Below are positions 27,820-42,886 of a DNA stretch of 42,886 bases, piece by piece. The notes beneath the pieces are model-generated. The model was not told the origin of the DNA. It ran no database searches and saw only the letters and a list, made by a program, of their open reading frames with translations. Every line of letters starts with the position of its first letter. Position 1 is the stretch's first letter. The DNA is taken from the NCBI GenBank assembly GCA_021782205.1, contig JAJXVH010000016.1, positions 1 through 42,886 on the forward strand, in the 5' to 3' direction. The translations under genes were made by a program, and so were the position numbers. The stretch comes from a bacterium. GTDB lineage: Bacteria > Elusimicrobiota > Elusimicrobia > UBA1565 > UBA9628.

Positions 27820-29367
27820 ATGATTGCGCCTCGTTCCCGCCGCACGGCCGCGCGCACGATTCTGGCGTTCCTGCTCTTTGCCGCGGCCCACGCCGCGCGG
27901 GCCGACGAGGCCGCGCCGCTGGTCGTTCGCGTCTACCACACCAACGACGTGCACGGCTGGATCATGGCGCGTCCCGACGCCATGGATCATGACCGGCCCA
28001 TCGGCGGCGAGGCGGCGTTCAAGGCGCTGGTCGACCGCGACCCCGGCCCCAAGCTGGTGCTGGACGCGGGCGACTGGTGGCAGGGCACGCCCGAAGGCTC
28101 CTTGACCAAGGGCGCGGCCGTCGCCGAGACCTTCAACGCGGTCGGCTACGACGCGGTGGAGATCGGCAACCACGAGTTCGACGCGGGCCAGGAAAACTTG
28201 AAGGCTTTGATCGCCCAGCTCAAGATGCCGGTGCTCGCGGCCAATATCTATGGACCCGACGGCAAGCGCGTGCCCTGGACCAAGCCGTGGATCATCAAGG
28301 AAGTCGACGGCGTGAAGTTCGGCGTCTTCGGCCTGCTGACCACGCACATGGGCGAGCTGGAGTTTCCCAAGAACATCGCGGGCCTGACCTTCCGGCGCGA
28401 GGTCGATGAGGCGCGCGACGACGTGAAGGCCTTGCGCCGCCAGGGCGCGGACGTGATCATCGCGGTGACCCACGTCGGCTTCGAGGCCGCCGACAAGCCT
28501 CCGTTCGAGGGCGACCAGACCTTGGCGCGCGAGGTGCCGGGCATCGACCTGATCGTGGGCGGCCACACGCACACCACTCTGAAAGTCCCCTACCGCGACC
28601 CCGTGCACGGGACCTTGATCGTGCAGGCCGGGTCCTACTTGTTTCGCGCCGGGCGCGTGACGCTCAAGATCGACGCGAAGACGCACCGCGTCCTGTCCTC
28701 CTCCGATGAACTTTTCGAGCTGCATCCGGACCGTCTCGGCGAGGATCCGGCGGTGAAGGCCGTCGTCGCGCGCCAAACCCAGGCCGTCGGCGCCATTTTC
28801 GAGACCGTCGTCGCGACGGCGACGGCGGCCTTGGTCCGCGCCTCCGGCCCGGATCAGGAGTCCGGCCTAGGGTCCTGGATGGCGGACTGCTACCGCGCGC
28901 GCGCCGCCGCCGACGTGGCCGTGCAGAACGCCGGCGGCATCCGTTCCGACATCCCGGCCGGGCCCGTCACCCTGCGCCGCCTTTTCGGCGTGATGCCGTT
29001 CGACAACGACCTGGTCCTGGCGCGCATGACCGGGGCCCAGGTGCGCTCCATGCTGGAGCATGCGGTCGTCTCGCCGCGGCTGGACCAGATTTCCGGCGCC
29101 GTCGTCACGTTTCGCCCGGGCCCGGCCGGCGCGCGGGGATTGGTCTCGGCGACGATCGGCGGCGCGCCTCTGGACGACGCGAAGACGTATTCCGTCGTCA
29201 CCTTGGATTTTCTGGTCAGCGGCGGGGGCGGCTATCGCGAGTTCGCCCAGGCGTCTTCGCGCGCGGCGCTGGGTGTGCCGGCGCGCGACGCGCTGCGCGC
29301 CTGCGCCGAGACGCAGAAGCTTCTCGCGCCGCCGGCGCCCGGGCGGCTCAAGGCTCAAGGAGGCTGA
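27820..29367 (+). CDS. Secreted 5'-nucleotidase / metallophosphatase (UshA-like)
   Basis: A 515-residue protein with a twin-Arg-containing but Sec-like signal (RRTAARTILAFLLFAAAHAARA). The metallophosphatase domain shows VYHTNDVHGW, DAGDWWQGTPEG, GNHEFD, THVGF and GGHTHT, the full dinuclear metal set. The C-terminal nucleotidase domain (from about residue 325) has QNAGGIRSDIPAGPVTL, FGVMPFDNDLV and VSGGGGYREF, where aromatic residues hold the base in UshA. The family releases phosphate from nucleotides (some members cleave UDP-sugars) in the periplasm. Its position just upstream of a deoxyribose-phosphate BMC suggests it supplies nucleosides, which is inference. The next gene begins 3 bp after its stop. 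Confidence 0.9.
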   Translation: MIAPRSRRTAARTILAFLLFAAAHAARADEAAPLVVRVYHTNDVHGWIMARPDAMDHDRPIGGEAAFKALVDRDPGPKLVLDAGDWWQGTPEGSLTKGAAVAETFNAVGYDAVEIGNHEFDAGQENLKALIAQLKMPVLAANIYGPDGKRVPWTKPWIIKEVDGVKFGVFGLLTTHMGELEFPKNIAGLTFRREVDEARDDVKALRRQGADVIIAVTHVGFEAADKPPFEGDQTLAREVPGIDLIVGGHTHTTLKVPYRDPVHGTLIVQAGSYLFRAGRVTLKIDAKTHRVLSSSDELFELHPDRLGEDPAVKAVVARQTQAVGAIFETVVATATAALVRASGPDQESGLGSWMADCYRARAAADVAVQNAGGIRSDIPAGPVTLRRLFGVMPFDNDLVLARMTGAQVRSMLEHAVVSPRLDQISGAVVTFRPGPAGARGLVSATIGGAPLDDAKTYSVVTLDFLVSGGGGYREFAQASSRAALGVPARDALRACAETQKLLAPPAPGRLKAQGG

Positions 29368-30012: not shown

Positions 30013-30044
30013 ATTCACCGGCATTGTTAGGGGCGGCAGTCGCG

Positions 30045-30067
30045 ATTGTGGACATAATGTCTACAAT
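30045..30067. promoter_or_regulatory. 23-bp palindromic operator candidate in the BMC leader
   Basis: ATTGT-G-GACAT (30045-30055) mirrors ATGTC-T-ACAAT (30057-30067) around A30056; only the 50/62 pair breaks the symmetry. It sits about 26 bp after the predicted transcription start, a place where a repressor could block elongation. No regulator gene lies in the window. The core recalls operators of winged-helix repressors, but no family can be assigned. Confidence 0.6.
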
Positions 30068-30089
30068 CGGCCGCCAAGAGAGGCTCTCG

Positions 30090-30857
30090 ATGACTCACGC
30101 CCTGCGTCGTCCGCTGCTGGCCGGAAACTGGAAAATGAACCTCACGCTGTCCCAAAGCGTGGAGCTGGCGCGGGCCGTGCGCGACGGCGCGTCCTCGGCG
30201 TCGGGCGAGGTGGCCGTCTGTGTGCCGTTCACCGCTCTTGCGGCCGTGGGCGAGGCGCTCAAAGGTTCCTCCGTGCGTTTAGGCGCTCAGGACGTTTATT
30301 GGGAGGCCTCCGGGGCGTTTACCGGCGAAATTTCCGCGGCCATGCTGGCCGACGCGGGCTGCGCGATGGTCGTCCTCGGCCACTCCGAGCGCCGCAAGCT
30401 GTTCGGCGAGAGCGACGAATGGGTCAACAAGAAGCTGGCCGCGGCGCTGAAGGCGGGTCTGACGCCGATCGTCTGCATCGGTGAGACGCTCGACGAGCGC
30501 GAGTCGCAGAAGACCTGGCGGGTGCTGGAGACGCAGATCGCGGGCGGCCTCAAAGGCTTCGCGCCCGCCGACCTGGCCAAGATCGTGATCGCCTACGAGC
30601 CGGTCTGGGCCATCGGCACCGGCAAGACCGCCACGCCGGCGCAGGCGCAGGAGGCGCATCTTTTCGTGCGCGGCCAGCTCAAGAAGCTTCACGGCGAAGG
30701 CTTCGCGCAGGGCGTGCGCATCCTTTACGGCGGCTCGGTCACGGCCGAGAACGTGGACTCCTTGATGGCGCAGGCGGACGTGGACGGCGCGCTGGTGGGC
30801 GGCGCGAGCCTCAAGAAGGATTCCTTCCTGCGCATCATGGGGTTCAAGAGCGCGTGA
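30090..30857 (+). CDS. tpiA: Triose-phosphate isomerase, first gene of the BMC operon
   Basis: A 255-residue TIM-barrel enzyme. Marks are LLAGNWKMNL (catalytic Lys), GAQDVYWEASGAFTGEIS, VVLGHSERRKLFGE (catalytic His) and AYEPVWAIGTGKTATP (catalytic Glu). It ends with YGGSVTAENVDSLM and GALVGGASL. The ATG at 30090 has GAGAGG upstream; the longer frame from 30024 would add 22 residues encoded by the operator region. Its stop overlaps the GTG of pduL. Placing tpiA here fits the glyceraldehyde-3-phosphate made by DeoC further down. Confidence 0.95.
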   Translation: MTHALRRPLLAGNWKMNLTLSQSVELARAVRDGASSASGEVAVCVPFTALAAVGEALKGSSVRLGAQDVYWEASGAFTGEISAAMLADAGCAMVVLGHSERRKLFGESDEWVNKKLAAALKAGLTPIVCIGETLDERESQKTWRVLETQIAGGLKGFAPADLAKIVIAYEPVWAIGTGKTATPAQAQEAHLFVRGQLKKLHGEGFAQGVRILYGGSVTAENVDSLMAQADVDGALVGGASLKKDSFLRIMGFKSA

Positions 30858-31489
30858 CCAGTCCCGCTCAAGCGGCGGACCTGGCGGCGGAGATCGAGAA
30901 GCGCCTCAAGCGCTCCAAGCTCGACATCCCCGTCGGCGTGTCGAACCGTCATTGCCACCTGACCGAGGCGCACTTCAAGATTTTGTTCGGCGCGGGCGCC
31001 GCGCCGAAAAAGGTGAAAGACATCAAGCAGCCGGGCTTCTACGCCGCCGAGGAGCTCATCGACGTGCAGGGGCCGAAGGGCGTCGCGAAAAAAATCCGTC
31101 TCGTCGCCCCCTACCGCGCGAACACCCAGATCGAGCTGGCCGTCACCGACGCGATCGCCGTCGGCCTCCGGCCGCCGGTGCGCGAGTCCGGGGACGTGAA
31201 AGGCTCGGCGGGGGCCGTCTTGATCGGCCCCGCGGGCAGAGTGGAGATCAAAGAAGGCGTGATCATCGCTCAACGCCACGTCCACTTTTCGCCGGCCGAG
31301 GCGAAGGCCTGGGGCATGACCTCCGGAGAGGTCGTGCGCGTGCGCGCCGGGACCGGCGGCGGGCGTTCCACCGTTTTCGAAGACGTCGTCGTCCGCGTGT
31401 CGGACAAGTACAGCCTCGAGTTCCACGTGGACACCGACGAGGCGAACGCCGCCGGCATCAAGACCGGCGACGTGGTGCACATCGCGTAA
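30854..31489 (+). CDS. pduL: BMC phosphate acyltransferase PduL
   Basis: A 211-residue enzyme that exchanges CoA for phosphate on acyl-CoA, conserving aldehyde oxidation as acyl-phosphate and recycling CoA inside the compartment. The two PduL barrels are seen: PVGVSNRHCHLTEAHF with the zinc-ligand His pair and IIAQRHVHFSPAEAK with the second set, plus KIRLVAPYRANTQIELAVTDA. Residues 1-20 (MTSPAQAADLAAEIEKRLKR) form an amphipathic helix as found in encapsulation peptides. The GTG start overlaps the tpiA stop. Confidence 0.93.
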   Translation: MTSPAQAADLAAEIEKRLKRSKLDIPVGVSNRHCHLTEAHFKILFGAGAAPKKVKDIKQPGFYAAEELIDVQGPKGVAKKIRLVAPYRANTQIELAVTDAIAVGLRPPVRESGDVKGSAGAVLIGPAGRVEIKEGVIIAQRHVHFSPAEAKAWGMTSGEVVRVRAGTGGGRSTVFEDVVVRVSDKYSLEFHVDTDEANAAGIKTGDVVHIA

Positions 31490-31504: not shown

Positions 31505-31801
31505 ATGAATGCACTGGGAATGATCGAGACGCGCGGGCTGGTCGCCTGCGTGGAAGCCGCCGACGCCGCCGTGAAGGCCGCCGACGTGCGCATCGTCGGC
31601 TATGAAAAGGTGGGCACGGGCCTGGTGACCGTGCTGTTTCGCGGCGAGGTCGCCGCGTGCAAGGCCGCCTGCGACTCCGGCGCGTCCGCCGCGCAGAAGG
31701 TCGGGGAGCTCATCGCGGTGCACGTGATCCCTCAGCCGCACCCGGACCTGGAGGGCAAGATGCCGATCTCCCTGCCCGAGCACCTGAGCCGCAAGAAGTA
31801 G
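31505..31801 (+). CDS. BMC-H hexameric shell protein 1
   Basis: A 98-residue single-domain shell protein of the PduA/EutM type: [46 protein letters not shown] and [13 protein letters not shown]. Hexamers tile the flat faces of the shell; the pore loop is formed by KVGTGL. A short basic tail (HLSRKK) closes it. GGAGAAC precedes the ATG. Confidence 0.96.
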
Positions 31802-31815
31802 GCGGGGAAGACAAA

Positions 31816-32121
31816 ATGATATTCGCCCGCGTCACGGGCACCGTCGTCTGCACGCTCAAAGACGAGAAGCTGGTGGGCTCGAAGCTGCTGCTGGTGCAGC
31901 CCGTCGACCTGGCCGGCTCCGCGAAGGGCAACCCCCTCGTCGCCGTCGACTCGGTCGGCGCCGGCGAGGGGGAGCTCGTCTTGATCGTGCAGGGGTCGAG
32001 CGCCCGGCAGACGAGCAGGACCGAGGGCCGTCCGGTGGACGCGGTCATCTTCGCGATCGTGGACACCGTGGAGCAGAACGGCAAGACCGCGTTCAAGAAG
32101 TCCACGGACGCCGAGAGGTAG
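31816..32121 (+). CDS. BMC-P pentameric vertex protein 1 (EutN/CcmL)
   Basis: A 101-residue vertex protein. FARVTGTVVCTLKDEKLVGSKLLLVQPVDL, PLVAVDSVGAGEGELVLIVQGSSAR and VDAVIFAIVDTVE are family-typical. Pentamers cap the corners of the polyhedral shell. It is one of three BMC-P genes in the operon. The ATG at 31816 follows BMC-H by 14 bp. Confidence 0.95.
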   Translation: MIFARVTGTVVCTLKDEKLVGSKLLLVQPVDLAGSAKGNPLVAVDSVGAGEGELVLIVQGSSARQTSRTEGRPVDAVIFAIVDTVEQNGKTAFKKSTDAER

Positions 32122-32125
32122 ACGC

Positions 32126-33583
32126 ATGCAGAGCACGGAGATCGCGCGGATCGTCGGCGAGGTGCTGGCCCGCCTGGAGAAAGAAGACCTGGGCCGCGTG
32201 CTGGCCGCGCCGCAGGCGGCGGCTGCGCCCGTCGCCGCGCCTTCCGGCTGCGGCGGCGTGGTCTACCCCACGGTCGACGCGGCCGTGCAGGCGGCGCGCA
32301 AGGCCCAGGCCGTCTTTCAAGACCAGGGCTTGGAGGTGCGCCGCGAGGTGATCCGCGCCATGCGCAAGGCGGCCGTCGCCCACGCCGAGCGCCTGGCGAA
32401 GATGGCGGTTCAGGAAACCGGCATGGGCCGTTGGGAGGACAAGGTCCAGAAGAACCTGGTTTGCGCGCTGCGCACGCCGGGCGTCGAGGACTTGACCAGC
32501 CGCGCCTACACCGGCGACAAAGGCCTGACGCTTGTGGAGTACGCGCCCTACGGCGTGGTCGCCGCGGTCACGCCGTCGACCAATCCCGCCGCCACGATCA
32601 TCAACAACGCGATCTCCATCCTGTCGGCGGGCAACTCGGTCGTCTTCTCGCCGCATCCCGCGTCGTTCAAGACCTGCGTGGAGGCGATGAGCGTGCTGTG
32701 CGAGGCGGCGCTTCAGGCCGGCGCGCCGCGCGGGCTGATCACGACCTACGAGAAACCCTCGCAGGAAAACACCCGGGCCCTGCTCGCCCATCCCGACACG
32801 CGCGTGAACATGGTCACCGGCGGCCCCGCGATCGTCAAGGTCGCCATGACCGTGGGCAAGACCTGCAAGACCATCGCCGCCGGACCCGGCAATCCGCCCG
32901 TCGTCGTCGACGAGACCGCGAATTTCCCGAAATGCGCCGAGGACGTGATCTTCGGCGCGTCCTTCGACAACAACGTGCTGTGCACCGCGGAAAAAGAAGT
33001 GATCGTGACCGAGGCGGCCAAGGCGCGCTTCCTCACCGCCATGCGCGCCGACCGCCGCGCCTTCGAGCTGAGCCCGGCTCAGGTGGACCAGGTCACGAAG
33101 CTTGTCATCAAGGAGGGCGGCCGCGGCTGCAAGGACCCGGTGCTCAACCGCGACTTCGTGGGCAAGGACGCGGCGGTCATCGCCCGGGGCATCGGCTTGA
33201 CGGTGCCCGAGGGCACGCGCCTGCTCTGGGCCGAGGTCGGCAACGACCATCCGCTGGTGTGGACCGAGCAGTTGATGCCGTTGCTTCCCGTCACCGTCGC
33301 CCGCGACGTCGACGCCGCCATCGAACTGGCCGTCGCCGCCGAGGGCGGCCATCGCCACACCGCGGCCATGCACTCGACCAACGTCGCCAACTTGACCAAG
33401 ATGGGCCGCGCCATGCAGTGCTCGATCTTCGTCAAAAACGGACCCACCTTGTTCGGCCTGGGCCTGGGCGAGGGCTATGCCACCATGTCCATCGGCACGC
33501 CCACCGGCGACGGTCTGACCAAGACCAGCCACTTCGCCCGCCCGCTGCACTGCGCGCTCGTCGGCTACTTCCGGATCGCCTAA
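32126..33583 (+). CDS. BMC acylating aldehyde dehydrogenase (PduP/EutE-like)
   Basis: A 485-residue CoA-acylating enzyme that oxidises an aldehyde, here most likely acetaldehyde from DeoC, to acyl-CoA with NAD+. Residues 1-28 (MQSTEIARIVGEVLARLEKE...) form an encapsulation peptide, followed by an Ala/Pro linker. The catalytic Cys is about C286 in SFDNNVLCTAEKEVIV, and the cofactor region is in TPSTNPAATIINNAI and VTGGPAIVKVAM. The length is normal for the family. No alcohol dehydrogenase for NAD+ recycling is seen in the window. Confidence 0.95.
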   Translation: MQSTEIARIVGEVLARLEKEDLGRVLAAPQAAAAPVAAPSGCGGVVYPTVDAAVQAARKAQAVFQDQGLEVRREVIRAMRKAAVAHAERLAKMAVQETGMGRWEDKVQKNLVCALRTPGVEDLTSRAYTGDKGLTLVEYAPYGVVAAVTPSTNPAATIINNAISILSAGNSVVFSPHPASFKTCVEAMSVLCEAALQAGAPRGLITTYEKPSQENTRALLAHPDTRVNMVTGGPAIVKVAMTVGKTCKTIAAGPGNPPVVVDETANFPKCAEDVIFGASFDNNVLCTAEKEVIVTEAAKARFLTAMRADRRAFELSPAQVDQVTKLVIKEGGRGCKDPVLNRDFVGKDAAVIARGIGLTVPEGTRLLWAEVGNDHPLVWTEQLMPLLPVTVARDVDAAIELAVAAEGGHRHTAAMHSTNVANLTKMGRAMQCSIFVKNGPTLFGLGLGEGYATMSIGTPTGDGLTKTSHFARPLHCALVGYFRIA

Positions 33584-33592
33584 GGAGACATC

Positions 33593-34144
33593 ATGCTCGC
33601 CAATCTCGCCGTCGGATTCCTGGAAACCTCCGCGATCGCCAAGGGCGTGGAGGCCGCCGACGCCATGGTCAAGATGGCCTCGGTCAAGCTCGTCAAGACC
33701 GCCTTCCTGGCGCGCGGCAAATACACGATCTACATCTCCGGCCCCGTCGGCGAGGTGGAGTCCGCGCTGCGCGCCGGCCGCCAGGTCCTGGACAAAACGC
33801 TGGTCGACGAGGTGCTGATTCGCAACGTGCACCGGCAGGTGCTCGACACGCTCGACAAGCGCGTGCCCGTCGAGAGCCTGGAGGCCGTCGGCGTCATCGA
33901 AACGAAGGAGGCGATCGCGGCGGTTCTGGCCGCCGACGCCGCCGCGAAGGCCGCGGCCGTGCGCCTCATCGAGACGCGCACTTCGGTGCCCGGCGGCAAG
34001 GGTCTGGTCACGATGACGGGCTCCGTCGGCGACGTGCGCACCGCGGTGGCCGCCGGCATCACCGCGCTCAGGAAGGAGCTGCTGGTCGGCCACGTGGTGA
34101 TCGCCAATGCCGACGCCCAACTGCTGGCGGCGGTGGGAAAATAA
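33593..34144 (+). CDS. BMC-T tandem-domain trimeric shell protein
   Basis: A 183-residue shell protein with two BMC folds: residues 1-88 (AVGFLETSAIAKGVEAADAMVK, KYTIYISGPVGEVESALRAG) and 95-183 (AVGVIETKEAIAAVLAADAAAKA, GLVTMTGSVGDVRTAVAAG). Such trimers are pseudohexameric tiles and often carry gated pores or metal sites. No Cys is available for a PduT-like Fe-S cluster. GGAGAC precedes the ATG; its TAA overlaps the next ATG. Confidence 0.94.
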   Translation: MLANLAVGFLETSAIAKGVEAADAMVKMASVKLVKTAFLARGKYTIYISGPVGEVESALRAGRQVLDKTLVDEVLIRNVHRQVLDTLDKRVPVESLEAVGVIETKEAIAAVLAADAAAKAAAVRLIETRTSVPGGKGLVTMTGSVGDVRTAVAAGITALRKELLVGHVVIANADAQLLAAVGK

Positions 34145-34593
34145 TGAAGATCGTCGTGGGCTCCGACCATGGCGGCTTCGCGGCCAAGGCCTTCGTCAAG
34201 AAGACGATCCAGGCGCTGGGCCACGAGGTCGTCGACTTCGGCTGCCACTCGACGGACGCGGTGGATTATCCCGACGTCGCCCAATTGGTCGCGGAGGCCG
34301 TGGCGCGCGGCGACTACGACCGCGCCGTGCTCATCGACGGCTTCGGGGGTGCCGTGTGCATGGCCGCCAACAAAGTTCCGGGAGCCCGCGCGGTGGCGGC
34401 GTACGATTCGGTGTCGGCGCGCATGGCCGCCCAGCACGACGACGCCAACGTGCTCTGCCTCGGCGGCAAGACGCACGGGGAACTGATCCATGCGGAAATC
34501 CTGAAAATTTTCTTCGGCACGCCTTTCGAGGGCGGCCGCCACGAGGGACGCCTGGCGAAGGTGAAGGCCATCGAGCAGAGGTATTCGCGGTGA
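34144..34593 (+). CDS. RpiB/LacAB-family protein lacking the usual catalytic Cys
   Basis: A 149-residue protein with the RpiB fold: MKIVVGSDHGGFAAK, VDFGCHSTDAVDYPDVA, AANKVPGARAVAAYD, HDDANVLCLGGKT and GGRHEGRLAKV. In canonical RpiB the loop CGTGIGMSIAANK carries the base Cys; here it reads DGFGGAVCMAANK, so the Cys (about residue 65) is Asp and Thr is Phe. RpiB homologues occur in SPU-type BMC loci. Whether this one still isomerises sugar phosphates, uses Asp as base, or does something else is open. It overlaps both neighbours. Confidence 0.88.
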   Translation: MKIVVGSDHGGFAAKAFVKKTIQALGHEVVDFGCHSTDAVDYPDVAQLVAEAVARGDYDRAVLIDGFGGAVCMAANKVPGARAVAAYDSVSARMAAQHDDANVLCLGGKTHGELIHAEILKIFFGTPFEGGRHEGRLAKVKAIEQRYSR

Positions 34594-35795
34594 GGCGATT
34601 TTTCGCCGCGGCGCTGTTGCTGGCCGCCGCCGGCTGCGCGGACGTGCGCTACTCGCCGATGTCGCCCGCGCGTGAATTGCCGCCGGCGCGCATCGCGCGC
34701 ATCGACGTCTCGGACGCTTCCGGCGGCTTGGAGTCCGCGGGCGCCGGGGTGACGCTCAAGCGCCCGTTTTTCGCGGCGTTTGCCGAGGCGGTGAACGCGC
34801 GTCTGGCCGCGCTGGGCGCGCGCGCGCAAGGCGGCGAGGGCGCGCGCGTGGAGGTCGTCTTGACCAAGGCCCGCCTGCGCCGCGGCGCGGGCATGGCGTC
34901 TCAGGCGGAGGGCACGGTGGTCTACGCGGTGCGCGTGTCGAGCGCCTCGGCGGGCGGCTGCGCGCGCGAAATCGTGGGACGCTCGGCCCTGCGCGAAGGG
35001 CCGTTTACGTCCACCGGCGCGCGCGCGCTGGAAATCGCCTTAGGCAAGGCGGTCGACGCGCTGGGGCCCGCGCTTGAGTCCTCCTGTCTTTACGGCGCGC
35101 CCGCTTCCTCTGTCGCGGCGTCCGCGCCGGCCGGCGCGCCGCCCGCTCGCGTGCGCGAGGACGCGCGACTCTACGCCGTGGTCGTGGGCGTGGGCCGCTA
35201 CCGGGGCGCTGCGGCGGACGGATTTGCCGCGCGCGACGCGCGCGACTTCGCCGCCGACGCCCAGGCCTTGCTCGGCGCCGAGGACGACCACGTGGCCGTG
35301 CTGACCGATGAGAACGCGACCTTGGCCGATCTGCGCAAGCATGTCGAGCGCTGGGCCGTCGACCGCGCCGACGCGGGCTCGGAACTGGTGTTCTACTTCT
35401 CCGGGAAAACGGCGGCGCAGTCGGGCGGACCGGTCTATCTTCTCCCCTACGACGCGGACCCGAACGCCTTGCCCGAGACGGGTTTTCCGCTGTCGCGTCT
35501 TTTCCAAGACCTGGGGCGTCTGCCCGCGCGCGTCACCGTGGTGTTGGAGGCGCCGGCGGCGTCCCTGCCGGCGCATCTGCCCGCCAATCTGACGCTTCTC
35601 TGCGCCGGCGCTCCGGGACAAGCCGTTCTGGAAGACGCGCCGGCGCGCCACGCGCTTTTTACGGGGCGGCTGCTTCAAAGCCTGAGCCGTAATGCCGAGC
35701 TTCCGGCCGCGTTCGACGACGCGGCTTCGGCCACCGCCGCGGCCGCGCGCGCGCGCGGCGCCGCGCAGACCCCCACGCGTCGAGGCGGCCCATGA
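34590..35795 (+). CDS. Lipoprotein with degenerate caspase-like (C14) domain
   Basis: A 401-residue protein, probably a lipoprotein (VRRFFAAALLLAAAGC, Cys16). Residues 20 to about 165 resemble a small envelope domain (RIARIDVSDASGG, VEVVLTKARLRRG). From about residue 194 it follows the caspase p20 order: LYAVVVGVGRYRG, ARDARDFAADAQALLG, VAVLTDENATLADLRKHVERW, ELVFYFSGKTAAQ and PVYLLPYDAD. Active members have SGHG and DACxSG; here the His site is SGKT (about residue 272) and the Cys site is VVLEAPAAS (about 317), so both catalytic residues are missing. The GTG overlaps the RpiB-like stop; its own stop overlaps BMC-P 2. Confidence 0.75.
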   Translation: MRRFFAAALLLAAAGCADVRYSPMSPARELPPARIARIDVSDASGGLESAGAGVTLKRPFFAAFAEAVNARLAALGARAQGGEGARVEVVLTKARLRRGAGMASQAEGTVVYAVRVSSASAGGCAREIVGRSALREGPFTSTGARALEIALGKAVDALGPALESSCLYGAPASSVAASAPAGAPPARVREDARLYAVVVGVGRYRGAAADGFAARDARDFAADAQALLGAEDDHVAVLTDENATLADLRKHVERWAVDRADAGSELVFYFSGKTAAQSGGPVYLLPYDADPNALPETGFPLSRLFQDLGRLPARVTVVLEAPAASLPAHLPANLTLLCAGAPGQAVLEDAPARHALFTGRLLQSLSRNAELPAAFDDAASATAAAARARGAAQTPTRRGGP

Positions 35796-36076
35796 AGCTG
35801 GCGCGCGTGGTCGGCCGCGTGTTCTGTTCCCGTCAGGATCCGGCTGTGGACAAAAAGACCCTGCTTTTGATCCAGCCGCTCAAATGGGAAGACGAGTCGC
35901 CCGCGGGCGACCCTCTGGTCGCGGCCGACGCGGTCGGCGCGGGGGCTTCGGAAAAAGTATTCTGGGTGGCGTCCCGGGATGCGGCGGTCGCCTTCCCGGA
36001 CGCGCCGCCGGTGGACGCGGCCGTGGTCGGCATCGTCGAGGGCCACCAGGCCCGAAGTTTTCGAGGGGGGCGCTGA
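35792..36076 (+). CDS. BMC-P vertex protein 2 (EutN/CcmL)
   Basis: A 94-residue vertex protein: LARVVGRVFCSRQDPAVDKKTLLLIQPLKW, PLVAADAVGAGASEKVFWVASRDA and VDAAVVGIVEG. It starts in an ATGA overlap with the caspase-like gene and shares its final A with the next ATG. It is more diverged than BMC-P 1 in the loop after the first strand. Confidence 0.92.
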   Translation: MKLARVVGRVFCSRQDPAVDKKTLLLIQPLKWEDESPAGDPLVAADAVGAGASEKVFWVASRDAAVAFPDAPPVDAAVVGIVEGHQARSFRGGR

Positions 36077-36372
36077 TGTTCGTGGCGGAAGTGGTCGGCA
36101 ACGTCTGGGGCACGCGCAAGCATGCGTCGCTACGCGACCGCCGCCTGCTGTTGGTACGGCCCATCGATCCGCTCACGGAAGCCCCTTTGGGAGACGCGAC
36201 GATGGCCGTCGAATACGGCACGGGCGCCGGTCCCGGTTCGGTGGTGCTGGTCATGGATGAAGGCGGTTCGGCGCGCTCCGTCTTGAAGGACGAGAAAGCC
36301 CCGATCCGCGCCGTGGTGGTGGGCATCGTGGACGCGGTCACGTCGGGTGGGAAGGTCAAAAGGTATGAATGA
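36076..36372 (+). CDS. BMC-P vertex protein 3 (EutN/CcmL)
   Basis: A 98-residue vertex protein: [55 protein letters not shown] and [12 protein letters not shown]. The [14 protein letters not shown] form is common in the third pentamer paralogue of multi-BMC-P loci. It overlaps BMC-P 2 by one base and deoC by 8 nt. Confidence 0.93.
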
Positions 36373-37351
36373 AGCGCAACTGCGGACCGTCGTCGAGGAA
36401 GTGGTGAAGGCGCTGGCGGCCAAGGGATTTCTGAAGTCCGGACGCTGCGAGTGCGAGGGAGGTCCCAAGGCGCTCAAGGGCGAGGTCAAGGCCACCGTCG
36501 GAAGCGCGGGCAAGACCTTCGGCGGCGCCACCGACTGGGGCGCCGCGCCCGCGCGCGGCCAGTTCTCCGCTCTGCCCGCGAAGGCCGCCCGCGACGAGGA
36601 CGACGACGACGCGCACGTCGACGAGCACGTGATCAAGTCCGCCGGCGCCGACCGCGTGTCCGTGTGCAAGCCCACCAAGAAGGGCACGAGCACCGCGCGC
36701 TATGTGGACCACACCTTGCTCAAGCCCAACGCCACGCAAGACGAGATCGCCAAATTGTGCGAAGAGGCCAAGAGCTTCTGCTTCGCCTCGGTCTGCGTCA
36801 ATCCGTCCTATGTCTCCTTGGCGGCGCAGTATCTGCGCGGCTCCGGCGTGAAGGTGTGCACGGTCGTGGGCTTTCCTCTGGGCTCGACGACGCCCACGGT
36901 CAAGGCCATCGAGGCGCGCGACGCCATCGCCAACGGGGCCGACGAGATCGACATGGTCATCAATATCGGAGCTCTTAAATCCGGCAACGACGTGATAGTC
37001 TACGACGACATCAAGGCCGTGCGCGAGGCCACGCGCGGCAAGGTGCTCAAGGTCATTTTGGAAACGTCCTTGTTGTCCAACGAGGAGAAGGTCCGCGCCT
37101 GCGCCGCGTCGAAGAAGGCCGGCGCGGACTTCGTCAAGACGTCGACGGGTTTCGCGGGCGGAGGGGCCACCGTGGAGGACGTCAAGCTGATGCGCGAGAC
37201 GGTGGGCCCGCTGATGGGCGTCAAGGCCTCCGGCGGCATCCGCGACGCGAAGATGGCGTCGGACATGATCGCGGCGGGCGCCACGCGCCTGGGCACGTCG
37301 GCCTCGGTGGCGATTGTCACGGACGCGAAGGCCGACGGCAAGGGATACTAA
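36365..37351 (+). CDS. deoC: Deoxyribose-phosphate aldolase with encapsulation extension
   Basis: A 328-residue DERA, about 110 residues longer than the usual enzyme. Residues 1-23 ([20 protein letters not shown]) form an encapsulation-peptide helix, then a flexible linker with a DEDDDD run (about 78-82). The aldolase barrel begins at about residue 111: [27 protein letters not shown] (catalytic Asp), DFVKTSTGF (Schiff-base Lys) and [10 protein letters not shown] (second Lys). It cleaves 2-deoxyribose-5-phosphate to acetaldehyde and glyceraldehyde-3-phosphate and is probably the signature enzyme of this compartment. Confidence 0.95.
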
Positions 37352-37679: not shown

Positions 37680-37973
37680 ATGGCTGAAGGCAAGGAAGCG
37701 CTGGGACTGGTGGAGACGAAGGGCTTCGTGGGGATGATCGAGGCCTCGGACGCGATGGCCAAGTCGGCGAAGGTGCGCCTGCTGGGCTATGAGAAGGTCG
37801 GCAACGGCCTGGTGACCACGCTGTGCCGCGGCGAGGTGGGTGCCGTGCGCGCGGCTGTCGACGCGGCCGCGGCGGCGGCCTCCAAGGTCGGTGAGTTGGT
37901 GGCGGTGCACGTGATCCCTCGCCCGCACGACGATCTGGAAAAATACCTGGACAAGATCGCGATCAAGGTCTGA
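37680..37973 (+). CDS. BMC-H hexameric shell protein 2
   Basis: A 97-residue shell protein: [47 protein letters not shown] and [20 protein letters not shown]. The pore loop is KVGNGL, different from KVGTGL in BMC-H 1, so the two may form pores of different character. GAGGAGG precedes the ATG by a few bases. Confidence 0.95.
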
Positions 37974-38036: not shown

Positions 38037-38306
38037 ATGCTCACGCGTGATGATTTGATCGATATTTTGGTTTCCGGTCTGGTTTCCGGCCCCGTGGCGG
38101 CGGCCGTGCCCGGACGGCTCGTTGCGTCCCGTTCCCGGGCGCTTCCTCCGCCGGGGCCGAAGGGCCGATGTTTCATTTCCGAGTCGGAGATAAAAAAGAG
38201 GTTGACGCCTGGGAGTAAACGCCTTACAATTGCCGGGAATTCGATCGTCAGCCCGCTGGCGCTCGAATGGCTGACGTTAAAAGGAATAGAAATCGTCCAG
38301 GAATGA
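38037..38306 (+). CDS. Small BMC-associated protein with encapsulation-peptide-like N-terminus
   Basis: An 89-residue protein. The N-terminal amphipathic helix MLTRDDLIDILVSGLVSG resembles the encapsulation peptides of the aldehyde dehydrogenase, DeoC and PduL; a Pro-rich linker (ALPPPGPKG) follows. The C-terminal part, CFISESEIKKRLTPGSKRLTIAG then NSIVSPLALEWLTLKGIEIV, matches the short module (start-helix, 'IVTPLAR...GI') found in EutT/EutQ-type and other BMC-locus proteins. No catalytic site is evident. The Shine-Dalgarno is weak. The pilT promoter lies within its 3' half. Confidence 0.65.
   Translation: MLTRDDLIDILVSGLVSGPVAAAVPGRLVASRSRALPPPGPKGRCFISESEIKKRLTPGSKRLTIAGNSIVSPLALEWLTLKGIEIVQE
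38202..38230 (+). promoter_or_regulatory. Near-consensus promoter of the pilT operon
   Basis: TTGACG (38202-38207), a 17-bp spacer and TACAAT (38225-38230). The expected start near 38237 gives a leader of about 86 nt before pilT at 38323. It is located inside the preceding small gene, which separates pilT expression from the BMC operon. Confidence 0.8.
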
Positions 38307-38322
38307 CCGCTGGGATAAAATT

Positions 38323-39408
38323 ATGCCGATCGATATCAAGAACTTGCTGACGCTGATGGTCCAGAAGGACATCTCCGACATTCATTTCAAGGTGGACTCC
38401 GTGCCCGCCCTGCGCGTGCGCGGGTCCATGATCCTGGCGACGAACCTGCAAAAGATGTCGGCCGAGGAGGTCAAGGCCGTCGCCTATCAATTGATGACCA
38501 AGGACCAGTCCGATCAATTCGAACAGACCATGGAAATGGACCTGGCCTACAGCCTGGAGGGCGTGGCGCGCTTCCGCGTCAACATCTACCGGCAGAAAGG
38601 AACGATTGGCCTGACCTTGCGCGTGGTGCCTCTGAACGTGCGCAGCTTTGAAGACCTGCATCTGCCCGTCGAGTCGCTGACCAAGCTCGGCCGCGAGAAC
38701 CGCGGTCTAGTTCTATTCACGGGCATCACCGGCGCGGGAAAGACGACGACGCTCAACAGCTTCCTGAACCACCTGAATACGAACTACCAATACCGGGTCA
38801 TCACCGTCGAAGACCCCATCGAGTATTACCACTCCGACATTAAGTCGACCATCGTCCAGCGCGAGGTCGGCCTGGACACGCGCTCCTTCCCGAACGCGCT
38901 CAAGCACATCCTGCGCCAGGACCCCGACGTGGTCGTCATCGGCGAGATGCGCGACCTGGAGACCATGCAGGCCGCCATCTCCGCGGCGGAGACGGGGCAC
39001 CTTGTCATCTCGACCGTCCACACGCTCGACGCGACGCAGACGGTCGACCGCATCGTTGACAGCTACCCGGCTCACCAGCACGGTCAGGTGCGTCAGCAGT
39101 TGGCGAACTGCCTCAAGGGCGTGGTCGGCCAGCGTCTGGTCGTCTCCAAGGACGGCAAGTCGCGCTTCCCCGCGACCGAGGTGATGATCGCCAACAGCCT
39201 GGTGCGTCGGCACTTGCTGGAAGGCAAGACCGCGGAACTGCGCAAGGTCCTGGAAGGCGGCGCCTACTACGGCATGCACACGTTCGACCAGGACTTGCTG
39301 CGCCTTTTCGGCGAGGGCAAGATCTCGGACAAGACGGTCCTCGAGGAGGCGACGAATTCTGAAGACGTCGCCTTGCGCCTGAAGGGACTGGAGAGCGGCG
39401 GCATCTGA
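38323..39408 (+). CDS. pilT: Type IV pilus retraction ATPase PilT
   Basis: A 361-residue hexameric motor ATPase that depolymerises type IV pili at the inner membrane. Marks are SDIHFKVDSVPALRVRG (N-terminal PAS-like domain), Walker A GITGAGKTTT (about residue 134), the Asp box TVEDPIEYYHSD, Walker B DPDVVVIGEMRD and the His box TGHLVISTVHT. The C-terminal AIRNLIREGK motif of classical PilT is altered to SLVRRHLLEGK. The stop overlaps the next ATG by one base. Pilin genes at 10.7-15.4 kb could encode substrates. Confidence 0.94.
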   Translation: MPIDIKNLLTLMVQKDISDIHFKVDSVPALRVRGSMILATNLQKMSAEEVKAVAYQLMTKDQSDQFEQTMEMDLAYSLEGVARFRVNIYRQKGTIGLTLRVVPLNVRSFEDLHLPVESLTKLGRENRGLVLFTGITGAGKTTTLNSFLNHLNTNYQYRVITVEDPIEYYHSDIKSTIVQREVGLDTRSFPNALKHILRQDPDVVVIGEMRDLETMQAAISAAETGHLVISTVHTLDATQTVDRIVDSYPAHQHGQVRQQLANCLKGVVGQRLVVSKDGKSRFPATEVMIANSLVRRHLLEGKTAELRKVLEGGAYYGMHTFDQDLLRLFGEGKISDKTVLEEATNSEDVALRLKGLESGGI

Positions 39409-40319
39409 TGGCGGACGAGCCGAAAAATCAGCCCGACGATATCAAGGGCATCCTCTCCGAGCTGGACGCGATCCTTTCCGATCTGGGCACGGCGGCGGGG
39501 CCGGTGAGCCCGAAGCCGGCTGCGCCCCCGCCGCCCAAGCCGGCGCCGCCGCCGCCCAAGCCGGCGGCACCAGCCCCGGCCTCGGCGCCGTCTCCCGCCG
39601 CGTCCGGCGACGACAAGACCCAGGTTTTGCATGTACAGGGTTCGGGAGAACCGTTGCCTCCCATCGAGGAGACCTCGGCTCCGAAACTGCCGCCGATTAC
39701 CCCGGTCTCCGCTCCCGCCGCGCGTCCCGCGCCGCCGCCGCCGCGCCCGGCTCCGCCGCCCGCAGCCGCACCTGCGCCTGTCCCTCCTCCCGCTCCCGTT
39801 GTCGCGCCCGTTCCGTCGCCCACCGCCGCGCCCGCGCCGGTTCCGGCTCCGATCTCGGCGGTTCCCGCCCCCGTTGCTTCCGTCGCGTCAAGCCCGGGTT
39901 CCGCGACGATCGGCGGCGGCGAGGTGCCCGTCACCACGCCGAAAGAACAGATTCGACGCGTCGCGTTTCTCTACACCTTCGCGTGCGCCGAGCCGCGACG
40001 CAATTTCGCCGTGTTTCTCTCCCAGGTGGCGAAGACCGTTTCGAAAAAGCCGCTGTATCTGCGCGAGGTCATGAGCGTCGAGGTCGCCGGAGCCAGCGAT
40101 CCCGACGCCCTCTACGAAGAAGCGGTCAGGCAGAAAGTCGTCGCGATTTTGGCCATCGTTGAAGGCTGGCCGCCGCAGCGCGTCGACGCCATGGCCGAGT
40201 TGTGTTCCCGCGCGGGCTTGCTGTTCCGCTCCATCTCTCCGGGCGACGTGCAGAAAAAATCTGCCGCGGTCGACGTCATCGTGGACATGATGCTTTTGCC
40301 GGGCGAGCGCGATGGATAG
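39408..40319 (+). CDS. Proline-rich protein with a unique C-terminal domain, linked to pilT
   Basis: A 303-residue cytoplasmic protein. Residues 1-27 are an acidic helix (DDIKGILSELDAILSDLG). Residues 32 to about 170 are a disordered Pro/Ala run with PPKP and PAP repeats. The C-terminal domain (about 178-303) begins KEQIRRVAFLYTFACAEPRRNFAVFLSQVAKTVSKK and has AILAIVEGWPPQRVDAMAELC and FRSISPGDVQKKSAAVDVIVDMML, an alpha/beta pattern that I do not recognise. It overlaps pilT by one base and the AAA+ gene by 8 nt. A scaffold or adaptor role is likely from architecture only. Confidence 0.75.
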   Translation: MADEPKNQPDDIKGILSELDAILSDLGTAAGPVSPKPAAPPPPKPAPPPPKPAAPAPASAPSPAASGDDKTQVLHVQGSGEPLPPIEETSAPKLPPITPVSAPAARPAPPPPRPAPPPAAAPAPVPPPAPVVAPVPSPTAAPAPVPAPISAVPAPVASVASSPGSATIGGGEVPVTTPKEQIRRVAFLYTFACAEPRRNFAVFLSQVAKTVSKKPLYLREVMSVEVAGASDPDALYEEAVRQKVVAILAIVEGWPPQRVDAMAELCSRAGLLFRSISPGDVQKKSAAVDVIVDMMLLPGERDG

Positions 40320-42207
40320 GTGGGAAATCCGCGCGACCGGCACCGACGACGATCCCGACCGTCATCTTCTTCTGATCCAGGGCGGGCCCGCCGATGTCGC
40401 CGCGCTGATTAAGAAATTCGGTGCGCTGTTCGGCCGACCGACTCCCTACCAAGGCGCGGAGTTCAACCTCAGTCTCGTTCTGCACGGCCTCGACGCGAAG
40501 ACACGCGAGCGGCTGGAATCTTGGCTAAGGCAGCGTGCGCCGGCCGTCGAACCCCAGCCTTCACGCGCGACCGCCGAGGCCGTTTCCTCTCCGCCGAGCC
40601 CGGTGCCGCCGGCCTTCGCGCCGGCGCCCGCCCCGTTGCCCGTTGCCGCGCCGATCACTTTGGCGCCGCCGCCCGCGGTTCCCATGGAACCGGCCGGCGA
40701 AGTGCCGCTTCCGCCCATTCCGGTTCCAATCCCCGCCCCGATCCCGTTGGCTCCTTTGCCGGAAGTTCTGGCCGCCGCCGCGCCGCCGATTCCGGAGCTC
40801 AAGCCGCGCGAGCCGGAAATCCCGCCGCTCATCGACTTGAACGCGGTGCCATCCCCTCCGCCGACTCCAACGCCTATGGAGGTTCCGGCTCCCGAGCCTC
40901 TTGCGCCGCCCGCGGCGACGCCGGTTCCGGCGGCTGTGACGGTTTTGAAGCCCGTGCCGGAGAGCCCGCCGCTACCCACGCCTACGCCTATGCCCGCACC
41001 GGCGGCGGCCTCGCCCGCGTCCCTGGTCCTGAGGTCGGATTGGTCGATGGATTCCCTGCACGTCGGAGCCTACAATCGTTTCGCGCACGCCGCGGCCACT
41101 CAGGTCATCTCCTCGCCGGGCACGATGTACAATCCTTTGTTCCTGTTCGGCGTGCCGGGCACGGGGAAATCACACCTGCTTCACGCTTTGGCGCACGCGC
41201 TGTCAAACGAAAAGAACGGCGCTGGAATTTTCATCACCTCCGGACCGCGGCTGTCGCGTGCGGTCAGCGCCGCCTTGGCCGCGAATAATACCGCTCCCAT
41301 CGACGCGCTGGTGGCGGAAGCCAGAGCGCTGCTCATCGACGATATCCATCTGATGTCCGTTTCCGAGTTGAACAAAAATGCGTTGGCCAAGATCTTTAAA
41401 TCCTTTTTCGACCGAAAACTGCAGGTCGTTATCACCTCGGGCTACCCGCCCAAGGCCTTGGCGGCCTTGGAGGAGTCCCTGAAGTTTTCCTTCTCCAGGG
41501 GCTGGTCGGTCGACCTCAAGGTTCCAGGGCCCGCGGCGCAGAAGGAGTTGATCGGGGCGGCGGCGGATCGCTCCGGCAGACATTTCGGCTCCGATGAGAT
41601 CGGTCTGCTACACGAGAAGCTGTCGGTATGGGGCTACCAGGAACTCTCGCAATGGCTGCACCGTTTCGGGCAGTTCAAGAAGCAGCGGGAAGCCGCGGCC
41701 CAGCCGGGTCTCGTCTCGGACATGCTACCGCTCATTTACGAACCCGTGCTGGCCGGCGGCGGCGAGGCGCCGCAGGCGGGCGCGTCGTTCCAGCCTCCGC
41801 CCGTCGCGGCCGGCGCCGCGTCGTTGGCCGTGATCGTACCCAAGGATCAGTTGGGCTTGAGCACGTTCGTCGCCGGGCGCTTCCACGAGGTCGGCGCCAA
41901 GAACGGAATGAATCGGTCCTACCGCCACGCGCTGTGGGAGAGCTACGACGCCCAACAGCCCTTCGGCGCGCCGTTCATGATCGGCGACCTATGCGAACGC
42001 GCGGCGGTGACTCACGTTCTGGTGCTGGGCCCCGCGCCGGAATCGGCTTTGGGTCCGCGGGCGACGGAGTTCGCGCACGCGGTACGGCACATCCTGGAAA
42101 ATCTCGGAATGGAGATGGGCTGGATTCCGTTTTCCGGCGCGACGATCGACGCGAATTATCTGAACGCGCACCTGGATTTCATCGCGGATCCCGCGCGAAC
42201 CGCATGA
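40312..42207 (+). CDS. DnaA-like AAA+ ATPase with proline-rich linker, in the pilT operon
   Basis: A 631-residue protein. Residues 1-76 form a small domain (HLLLIQGGPADVAALIKKFGALFG). Residues 78 to about 238 are Pro/Ala-rich. A DnaA/Hda-type AAA+ domain follows: SLHVGAYNRFAHAAATQVI, NPLFLFGVPGTGKSHLLHALA (Walker A, about 280), ALLIDDIHLM (Walker B, about 340) and VVITSGYPPKALAALEESL with FSFSRGWSVDL. DnaA's DNA-binding domain is absent; instead residues 505-631 form another domain (LGLSTFVAGRFHEVGA, AAVTHVLVLGPAPESAL). It may remodel or place the pilus machinery rather than open DNA; unproven. Confidence 0.82.
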   Translation: MDRWEIRATGTDDDPDRHLLLIQGGPADVAALIKKFGALFGRPTPYQGAEFNLSLVLHGLDAKTRERLESWLRQRAPAVEPQPSRATAEAVSSPPSPVPPAFAPAPAPLPVAAPITLAPPPAVPMEPAGEVPLPPIPVPIPAPIPLAPLPEVLAAAAPPIPELKPREPEIPPLIDLNAVPSPPPTPTPMEVPAPEPLAPPAATPVPAAVTVLKPVPESPPLPTPTPMPAPAAASPASLVLRSDWSMDSLHVGAYNRFAHAAATQVISSPGTMYNPLFLFGVPGTGKSHLLHALAHALSNEKNGAGIFITSGPRLSRAVSAALAANNTAPIDALVAEARALLIDDIHLMSVSELNKNALAKIFKSFFDRKLQVVITSGYPPKALAALEESLKFSFSRGWSVDLKVPGPAAQKELIGAAADRSGRHFGSDEIGLLHEKLSVWGYQELSQWLHRFGQFKKQREAAAQPGLVSDMLPLIYEPVLAGGGEAPQAGASFQPPPVAAGAASLAVIVPKDQLGLSTFVAGRFHEVGAKNGMNRSYRHALWESYDAQQPFGAPFMIGDLCERAAVTHVLVLGPAPESALGPRATEFAHAVRHILENLGMEMGWIPFSGATIDANYLNAHLDFIADPARTA

Positions 42208-42886
42208 ACACGTTCGCGGCCGCGGCCGCCGCGGCCGCGGCGCTGCTGTCCTCGGGCGCGGCCGGCTGGTGGGCGTGCGTGTTCCTGCGCCGGCTTCCGC
42301 TGGAGCGCGCGCTGCGCGGCAAGCAGGCTGAATTAGAGGCGGCGCGCGCGCTGGCCGCGCGTCTTTTCGACGCCAACGCGCTGTCCGGCCGGCCCGCGCA
42401 CGCCTACGCCGAGGCCGCAGGCCGGGCGCTGGACGAGCTCCACCGGCTGCATCCGAACCTGGCTTTCGCGGCCGCGGCGCGCGCCCCCGACGGACGCGCG
42501 CTCCTGCTCGCGCATCGCGGCGGAGCCTGGGCGCGGGTGCCGCTGACGGCGCTCAGCTTCGAGCGCGGCCTGCTCTCGCGCGCCGCCGCGGACGGCGAGG
42601 CGGACTGGGAACTGGATCGCGCCGGCGCGGTGGGTGACCCGCTGACCGACGCGCTGGCCGATCTGGGCTATACTGCCGCGTGCGCGCGCGGCTGGAGCGG
42701 CGAAGAGGGCACGGGCGTGCTCGTCGCGGCCCTGTCCGCGCCCGGCCCGGAGTTGGCGCGCGCGCGGGAGGACGCGCGGATGGCGGCCGCGGCCCTGCGC
42801 GCGGCGGCCGCCCTGGCCGAGCGCCAGTCGCGGCTGCTGGAAACGCGCGAGCGCCTGCAGGGCGGTCTGACCGCGGCCATGGAGGA
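42204..42886 (+). CDS. Membrane-anchored, probably sensory protein (partial, runs off the window)
   Basis: The visible 227 residues start with a hydrophobic Ala-rich segment (MNTFAAAAAAAAALLSSGAAGWWACVFLRR) that may be a membrane anchor, then a helical stretch and a GAF-like alpha/beta region (DALADLGYTAACARGW, GTGVLVAALSAPG). A coiled coil begins at the end (AAALAERQSRLLETRERLQGG). This is the order of many sensor kinases, and a kinase or output domain may lie beyond the edge; none is visible here. It starts in an ATGA overlap with the AAA+ gene. Extremely GC-rich. Confidence 0.6.
   Translation, partial: MNTFAAAAAAAAALLSSGAAGWWACVFLRRLPLERALRGKQAELEAARALAARLFDANALSGRPAHAYAEAAGRALDELHRLHPNLAFAAAARAPDGRALLLAHRGGAWARVPLTALSFERGLLSRAAADGEADWELDRAGAVGDPLTDALADLGYTAACARGWSGEEGTGVLVAALSAPGPELARAREDARMAAAALRAAAALAERQSRLLETRERLQGGLTAAME

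Follow-up and report, generated by a model that had tools for sequence, protein, structure and literature searches.

Why does a gene for a pilus motor ATPase overlap a gene for a second protein, which in turn overlaps one for a DnaA-type ATPase and one for a putative sensor, at the end of a microcompartment locus? The stretch of DNA analyzed here, the window, is the complete contig C18 (42,886 bases) of an Elusimicrobiota genome (GCA_021782205.1, contig JAJXVH010000016.1, positions 1-42,886 of the forward strand; Elusimicrobiota; Elusimicrobia; UBA1565; UBA9628). Four overlapping genes at 38323-42886, in the order pilT, P2, P3, P4, make up the module. The initial annotation had noted the overlaps, the proline runs and a membrane-anchored, sensory-looking protein, and all three were borne out: the overlaps are of 1, 8 and 4 nt, long proline-rich linkers occur in both P2 and P3, and intact relatives of P4 are GAF histidine kinases. 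The features of the module are:

38323-39408, + strand: pilT, an accessory PilT paralog
39408-40319, + strand: P2 (303 aa), overlapping pilT by 1 nt, with an N-terminal helix motif, a proline-rich linker and a C-terminal alpha/beta domain (39933-40316)
40312-42207, + strand: P3 (631 aa), overlapping P2 by 8 nt
40312-40548, + strand: P3 N-domain, conserved in 75 ORFs
41032-41583, + strand: P3 DnaA-type AAA+ domain
41803-42207, + strand: P3 C-domain
42204-42886 (contig end), + strand: P4, a putative membrane-anchored GAF sensor histidine kinase, incomplete, overlapping P3 by 4 nt

The overlapping starts of pilT, P2 and P3 suggest translational coupling. Since the window is a whole contig and P4 runs into its end, P4 is truncated. 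Its 227 residues align to full-length relatives of ~650 aa with GAF, HisKA and HATPase domains; the HisKA and HATPase domains are both present in intact relatives, and the window copy is cut at the contig edge.

Residues 241-400 of P3 match Pfam Bac_DnaA (8e-29), and the only other matches are to general AAA+ models over the same stretch. No match to Bac_DnaA_C (domain IV, DNA-binding) was found in P3 in the Pfam scan, and the match to TIGR00362 (DnaA) stops at profile position 288 of 437, with 117 bits relative to a cut-off of 343.9. The earlier description of a DnaA-like ATPase that lacks the DNA-binding domain is thus correct. The possibility that the domain would prove closest to another AAA+ clade, raised at the same time as a reason for doubt, does not agree with the NCBIfam scores, which are 117 bits for DnaA, 42 for Hda (TIGR03420, cut-off 194.8) and 36 for ZapE. 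In the tree, the P3 AAA+ domains stand apart from every DnaA sampled, those of E. coli and a Firmicutes among them (100/99). The true DnaA of the window genome is encoded on C21. We considered a recent duplication from Elusimicrobiota DnaA and found it unsupported, as P3 lies outside the clade that holds E. coli and Firmicutes DnaA (in an unrooted tree in which Hda is a very long branch). Judged from the profile matches and the tree, P3 carries the AAA+ domain of an old DnaA paralog that lacks the DNA-binding domain and has two new domains.

The Walker motifs of the window P3 are of the DnaA type (GVPGTGKSH and LLIDDIHL). The arginine finger (box VII) and the sensor-II arginine are absent from this protein and from most derived P3, as compiled in a motif table. 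All four motifs (Walker A, Walker B, arginine finger SRFEWGL, sensor-II arginine NIRELEG) have the DnaA form when P3 comes from another class or from almost any deep family. P3 of the window's order and of families f7, f8, f12 and f15 keeps Walker A and B; its arginine finger is Arg in only a few sequences and its sensor-II Arg is almost never present. These degenerate forms are united in the tree at 100/100. Knowledge of DnaA predicts that a protein which has lost both arginines can still bind ATP and can no longer assemble or hydrolyze it in the DnaA way. By this analogy, P3 of the window's lineage is probably an ATP-binding switch that does not assemble or hydrolyze ATP in the manner of DnaA, and P3 of the deep lineages can probably do both and may handle incoming single strands.

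Three folded parts make up P3 relatives: the N-domain (~75 residues), the DnaA-type AAA+ domain and the C-domain (~120 residues). The linkers between them are proline-rich or acidic and range in length from ~150 to ~1,000 residues. The longest occur in f7, a family with small genomes, where up to ~1,000 residues separate the N-domain from the AAA+ domain and no P2, cluster PilT or kinase adjoins P3 (L059, L060, L070, L071). The stretches that had been singled out early on, P3 505-631 and P2 178-303, proved to be conserved domains (with our boundaries, P3 505-631 and P2 176-303). AlphaFold2 predicts the P3 C-domain confidently as (beta-alpha)x4 (pLDDT 93) and the N-domain as beta-beta-alpha-beta-alpha (pLDDT 88). 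Neither has a meaningful match in Pfam or, by profile comparison, a notable match in the PDB. Fold comparison indicated weak similarity of the C-domain to lumazine synthase (TM ~0.5-0.6) and of the N-domain to ACT/ferredoxin folds; neither likeness points to a function.

P2 has no match in Pfam or NCBIfam, and the best PDB match of its profile is to a designed Rossmann protein (0.0013). In the window's order P2 starts with a conserved helix motif, DIxGILSDLDxIL. The C-domains of P2 and P3 align over their full lengths (hhalign 1.9e-4 and, for a second alignment pair, 7e-4; 0.16 for a control pair), although the probabilities of these independent comparisons are modest (47% and 26%). A further score of 99.5% was discounted because iteration of the P2 profile had drawn in P3 sequences, so that the comparison was not independent. 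With modest confidence, we consider the P2 C-domain to be remotely homologous to the P3 C-domain. The homology is strengthened by P2 of f10 and f11, which carries both the N-domain and the C-domain and is in effect P3 minus the ATPase. The idea that the C-domains of P2 and P3 act as phospho-receivers of the kinase was also considered and rejected, given that the fold is (beta-alpha)x4 and that strand 3 is followed by V-L-G-P and by no conserved aspartate.

The window PilT exceeds the cut-off of the NCBIfam PilT/PilU model TIGR01420 (418 bits; cut-off 319.1), and it is encoded in a genome with 11 secretion-type ATPases above the Pfam cut-off. The cluster PilTs of all classes form a single clade in the tree (100/99), in which the AIRNLIRE motif is replaced (SLVRRHLLE in the window); the PilT that adjoins pilB on C70 keeps AIRNLIREQK. 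Because the cluster PilTs have their own clade without AIRNLIRE, and because a housekeeping, pilB-linked PilT is encoded elsewhere (on C70), the motor of the module is, on sequence evidence, a dedicated non-housekeeping paralog, an accessory motor for which retraction is predicted. The locus had been described as a pilus retraction operon, and pilT does stand beside P2, P3 and P4, but the description needs to be amended to that of an accessory paralog, the pilB-linked copy being on C70.

The C-domain profile identified P3 in 216 of the 235 genomes of the class. Twelve genomes of f5, f6 and f9-f11 with weak C-domain scores were checked by locus, and in 11 of the fetched loci the C-domain occurs together with a DnaA-type AAA+ domain. 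In a DnaA search of 16 genomes, P3 was also found in four of six genomes of other classes (G235, G239, G327 and G333). These proteins reach 362-378 bits, over the DnaA cut-off of 343.9, with a match that ends before domain IV. P3 loci of other classes that are over the NCBIfam DnaA equivalog cut-off and without domain IV are L217:8600-10372, L218:9440-11131, L219:3371-5065 and L220:8988-10835; as they pass the naming cut-off, the proteins are probably annotated as a second DnaA.

Cluster PilT is encoded directly upstream of P3, usually with P2 in between, in 37 loci of 11 families (f1, f2, f3, f5, f6, f10 and f11, and f16, f18, f25 and f29 in other classes). Chance falls far short of explaining an order shared by 11 families, of which four belong to other classes. 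PilT, P2 and P3 are contiguous or overlapping while both flanks differ between classes. The kinase usually follows P3, and in L217 it is followed by a receiver-only response regulator, the sole such neighbor seen. The initial annotation had looked to a conserved order and to co-occurrence with pilT in relatives, and the 37 loci provide both.

P3, often with P2 and the kinase, also persists where cluster PilT is gone. Cluster PilT is missing at the P3 locus in all seven loci of f7 and all 16 of f8, in two loci of f9, in one each of f15 and f2, and in eight of f1. In f9 an ortholog is encoded elsewhere in the genome; none was found in the sampled f7, f8 and PilT-less f1 genomes. Within f1, 20 loci have PilT together with P2 and eight have neither (L048 is an apparent exception to the pairing, as its P2 lies in a longer frame). 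The survival of P3 without cluster PilT in f7, f8 and parts of f1 implies a second partner or role there, perhaps with other PilT paralogs. We conclude that the association of PilT, P2, P3 and the GAF kinase is genuine and of great age. It has apparently not been described in the searchable literature, where we found nothing relevant on a DnaA-like protein with type IV pili, on Elusimicrobia with PilT, or on a DnaA paralog.

The module ends an SPU-type microcompartment locus, with genes for a DeoC aldolase, an aldehyde dehydrogenase, PduL and shell proteins. Upstream of pilT are:

27820-29367, + strand: 5'-nucleotidase (UshA-like), the upstream end of the DNA-catabolism context (Pfam 5_nucleotid_C, 1.4e-33)
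30024-30857, + strand: TpiA, triose-phosphate isomerase (NCBIfam tim, 216 bits, above cut-off)
30854-31489, + strand: PduL-type phosphotransacylase (Pfam PTAC, 3.7e-68)
31657-32121, + strand: BMC-P (EutN/CcmL) shell protein (Pfam EutN_CcmL, 3e-31), the true start probably downstream of the ORF start
32126-33583, + strand: BMC-type aldehyde dehydrogenase, AldDH (NCBIfam NF011927, 569 bits, above cut-off)
33593-34144, + strand: tandem BMC-domain shell protein (Pfam BMC, two stretches, 3.4e-37)
35792-36076 and ~36076-36372, + strand: two EutN/CcmL-type shell genes (Pfam EutN_CcmL 1.3e-19 for the first; profile matches for both ORFs)
36347-37351, + strand: DeoC deoxyribose-phosphate aldolase with an N-terminal extension of ~115 aa (NCBIfam deoC, 297 bits, above cut-off)
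37680-37973, + strand: BMC-H shell protein (Pfam BMC, 2.8e-27)
38037-38306, + strand: short BMC-locus protein, weakly like TIGR02536 (3.3e-5, under cut-off), in the same position in relatives

Between shell-protein genes, at 34107-35795, lies an ORF that encodes a caspase-like (Peptidase_C14) domain and contains an internal start resembling that of a lipoprotein. The DeoC extension (36347-36690) opens with a helix-like stretch of 23 residues that resembles an encapsulation peptide; DeoC of f7 has no extension. RpiB was not among the window ORFs scanned and adjoins the module in L217, L219 and L220.

Two surveys propose that SPU microcompartments metabolize DNA degradation products (PMC4207490 and PMC8217296). 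The words PilT, DnaA and pilus do not occur in the main text of PMC8217296, nor pilus or DNA uptake in that of PMC4207490. Other genes near the module have a similar character. In L145 (f11) and L220 (other class), genes for DeoB phosphopentomutase and for the nucleoside phosphorylases PunA and DeoA follow the kinase; DeoB and PunA are encoded near the module in L217, and RecJ nearby in L217-L220. In the window's class, comM, dprA and topA lie downstream. The catabolic genes are found again near the module in several classes, also where their order differs. Of 22 genomes tested, 21 encode ComEC, a close relative of the window genome among them; the window's own MAG (95.6% complete) gave no match. 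This context shifts the initial picture: the module is set among genes for the breakdown of deoxynucleosides and DNA, not among general twitching genes. In much of the class, GNA1162-like and CsgG-type lipoproteins are encoded after the kinase (L056:4574-7481 and equivalents); it is conceivable that CsgG/FlgT-like proteins are outer membrane partners for the pilus.

We therefore propose, with a probability of roughly 0.38, that the module is a switch, derived from DnaA and under the control of a sensor, for an accessory pilus motor that brings in DNA to be catabolized. The kinase would sense a cue, and P2 and P3 would pair through their matching C-domains to form an ATP-gated scaffold that docks on, gates or licenses the accessory PilT. 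The type IV pilus would retract with captured DNA, which would then be degraded, and the nucleotidase, nucleoside phosphorylases, DeoB and DeoC microcompartment would turn its deoxyribose into acetyl-phosphate and triose phosphate. The complete chain, a dedicated DNA-foraging system in which the DnaA-derived AAA+ protein and P2, under the sensor kinase, gate PilT and the DNA passes through nuclease and nucleoside enzymes to a deoxyribose microcompartment, is tentative and in itself somewhat unlikely. Counted in favor of DNA capture are the position of PilT directly upstream of (P2-)P3 in 37 loci with differing flanks, the joint presence or absence of PilT and P2 in f1, the separate PilT clade without AIRNLIRE, the split of P3 from DnaA with arginine finger and sensor II intact in deep lineages, the catabolic context genes, the frequency of ComEC, the nearby comM and dprA, and the occurrence of PilT family genes in 235/235 genomes of the class. 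Counted against it are the persistence of P3 without cluster PilT, the lack of a ComEC match in the window's MAG, the fact that comM-dprA-topA-xerC is a common bacterial synteny and perhaps not functional, the single case (L217) of a receiver gene beside the kinase, and the dependence of ancestral DNA handling by P3 on analogy with DnaA. The new signal-sensing switch of the initial annotation survives in part: the module of PilT, P2, DnaA-type P3 and sensor kinase stands, but its PilT is an accessory one, P3 outlasts that PilT, and the setting is DNA catabolism.

A general regulator of type IV pili along the lines of the initial annotation, with the kinase and the DnaA-derived ATPase positioning or switching on a PilU-like second retraction motor for surface motility or adhesion, would make the nucleoside and microcompartment neighbors incidental. 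The deep linkage to PilT and the universal presence of pilT family genes in the class agree with it, and AIRNLIRE is missing in PilU too, a PilT-dependent retraction ATPase (PMC6762196). Given the recurrence of the same catabolic genes around the module in several classes despite changed order, and as the cluster yielded no further pilus assembly genes, we regard it as unlikely, if of appreciable weight.

Inherited gene order in a slowly rearranging phylum, with P3 in a housekeeping role unrelated to PilT, could account for the retention of P3 after PilT loss and for tpiA-deoC-P3 and P3-comM-dprA-topA, which are kept in many families. It is improbable, because PilT-P2-P3 stay contiguous or overlapping though both flanks change between classes, and the overlapping starts suggest coupling. 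Quite improbable is a role for P3, as a relative of Hda/DnaA, in regulating replication or stress by sensing nucleotide supply, with neighbors that reflect nucleotide metabolism and PilT linked by old gene order: its DnaA ancestry and the nearby nucleoside genes and topA would fit, whereas the missing DNA-binding domain, the Hda score of 42 relative to 194.8 bits, the dedicated PilT clade and the joint loss of PilT and P2 in f1 do not. The idea that P2 and P3 position or regulate the DeoC microcompartment (e.g., by anchoring shells to nucleoid or pole, in the McdAB-carboxysome manner) with PilT as a passenger is very improbable. The module does abut shell genes in the window's order, f6, f10, f11 and f15, but both P3 and PilT are retained in loci around which no shell gene was found (L147, L151, L152, L217-L220), P3 is kept in f7 and f8 without shell genes nearby, and P3 does not belong to the ParA-type ATPases.

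If the linkage is functional, a replication-initiator ATPase was recruited to control a pilus motor and then decayed stepwise; as intact and degenerate P3 both survive, the conversion of a machine into a switch would be open to direct study. If DNA capture is correct, the module would be the missing front end of the SPU microcompartment, that is, the means by which cells obtain the DNA whose deoxyribose the compartment would burn. P3 would then be, to our knowledge, the first DnaA family member known to govern a surface machine, and its pilus the first with a link to a metabolosome.

Several known systems resemble parts of the module. P3 shares the AAA+ subtype of DnaA domain III, and the copies from other classes and from almost all deep families agree with it in Walker A/B, arginine finger and sensor II; P3 differs from DnaA in the absence of domain IV, the new N- and C-domains, its separate lineage, its degeneration in the window's lineage and its pilT neighbors. 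Hda is likewise a DnaA-type AAA+ protein without the DNA-binding domain, but P3 falls far below the Hda cut-off and has extra domains, long linkers and a different gene neighborhood. P4 relatives share HisKA and HATPase domains and a GAF sensor with PhoR/PnpS-type kinases, although the scores are below every named kinase model cut-off shown and a partner response regulator is usually not seen in the cluster. PilU is also a PilT family paralog without AIRNLIRE that occurs alongside a normal PilT (PMC6762196), a comparison of features that does not imply orthology; cluster PilT, by contrast, is tied to P2, P3 and the histidine kinase and not to pilT. As described in PMC4207490 and PMC8217296, SPU loci combine DeoC, AldDH, PduL, TpiA and shell proteins in one locus, as does the window, where these genes are followed by those for PilT, P2, P3 and the histidine kinase.
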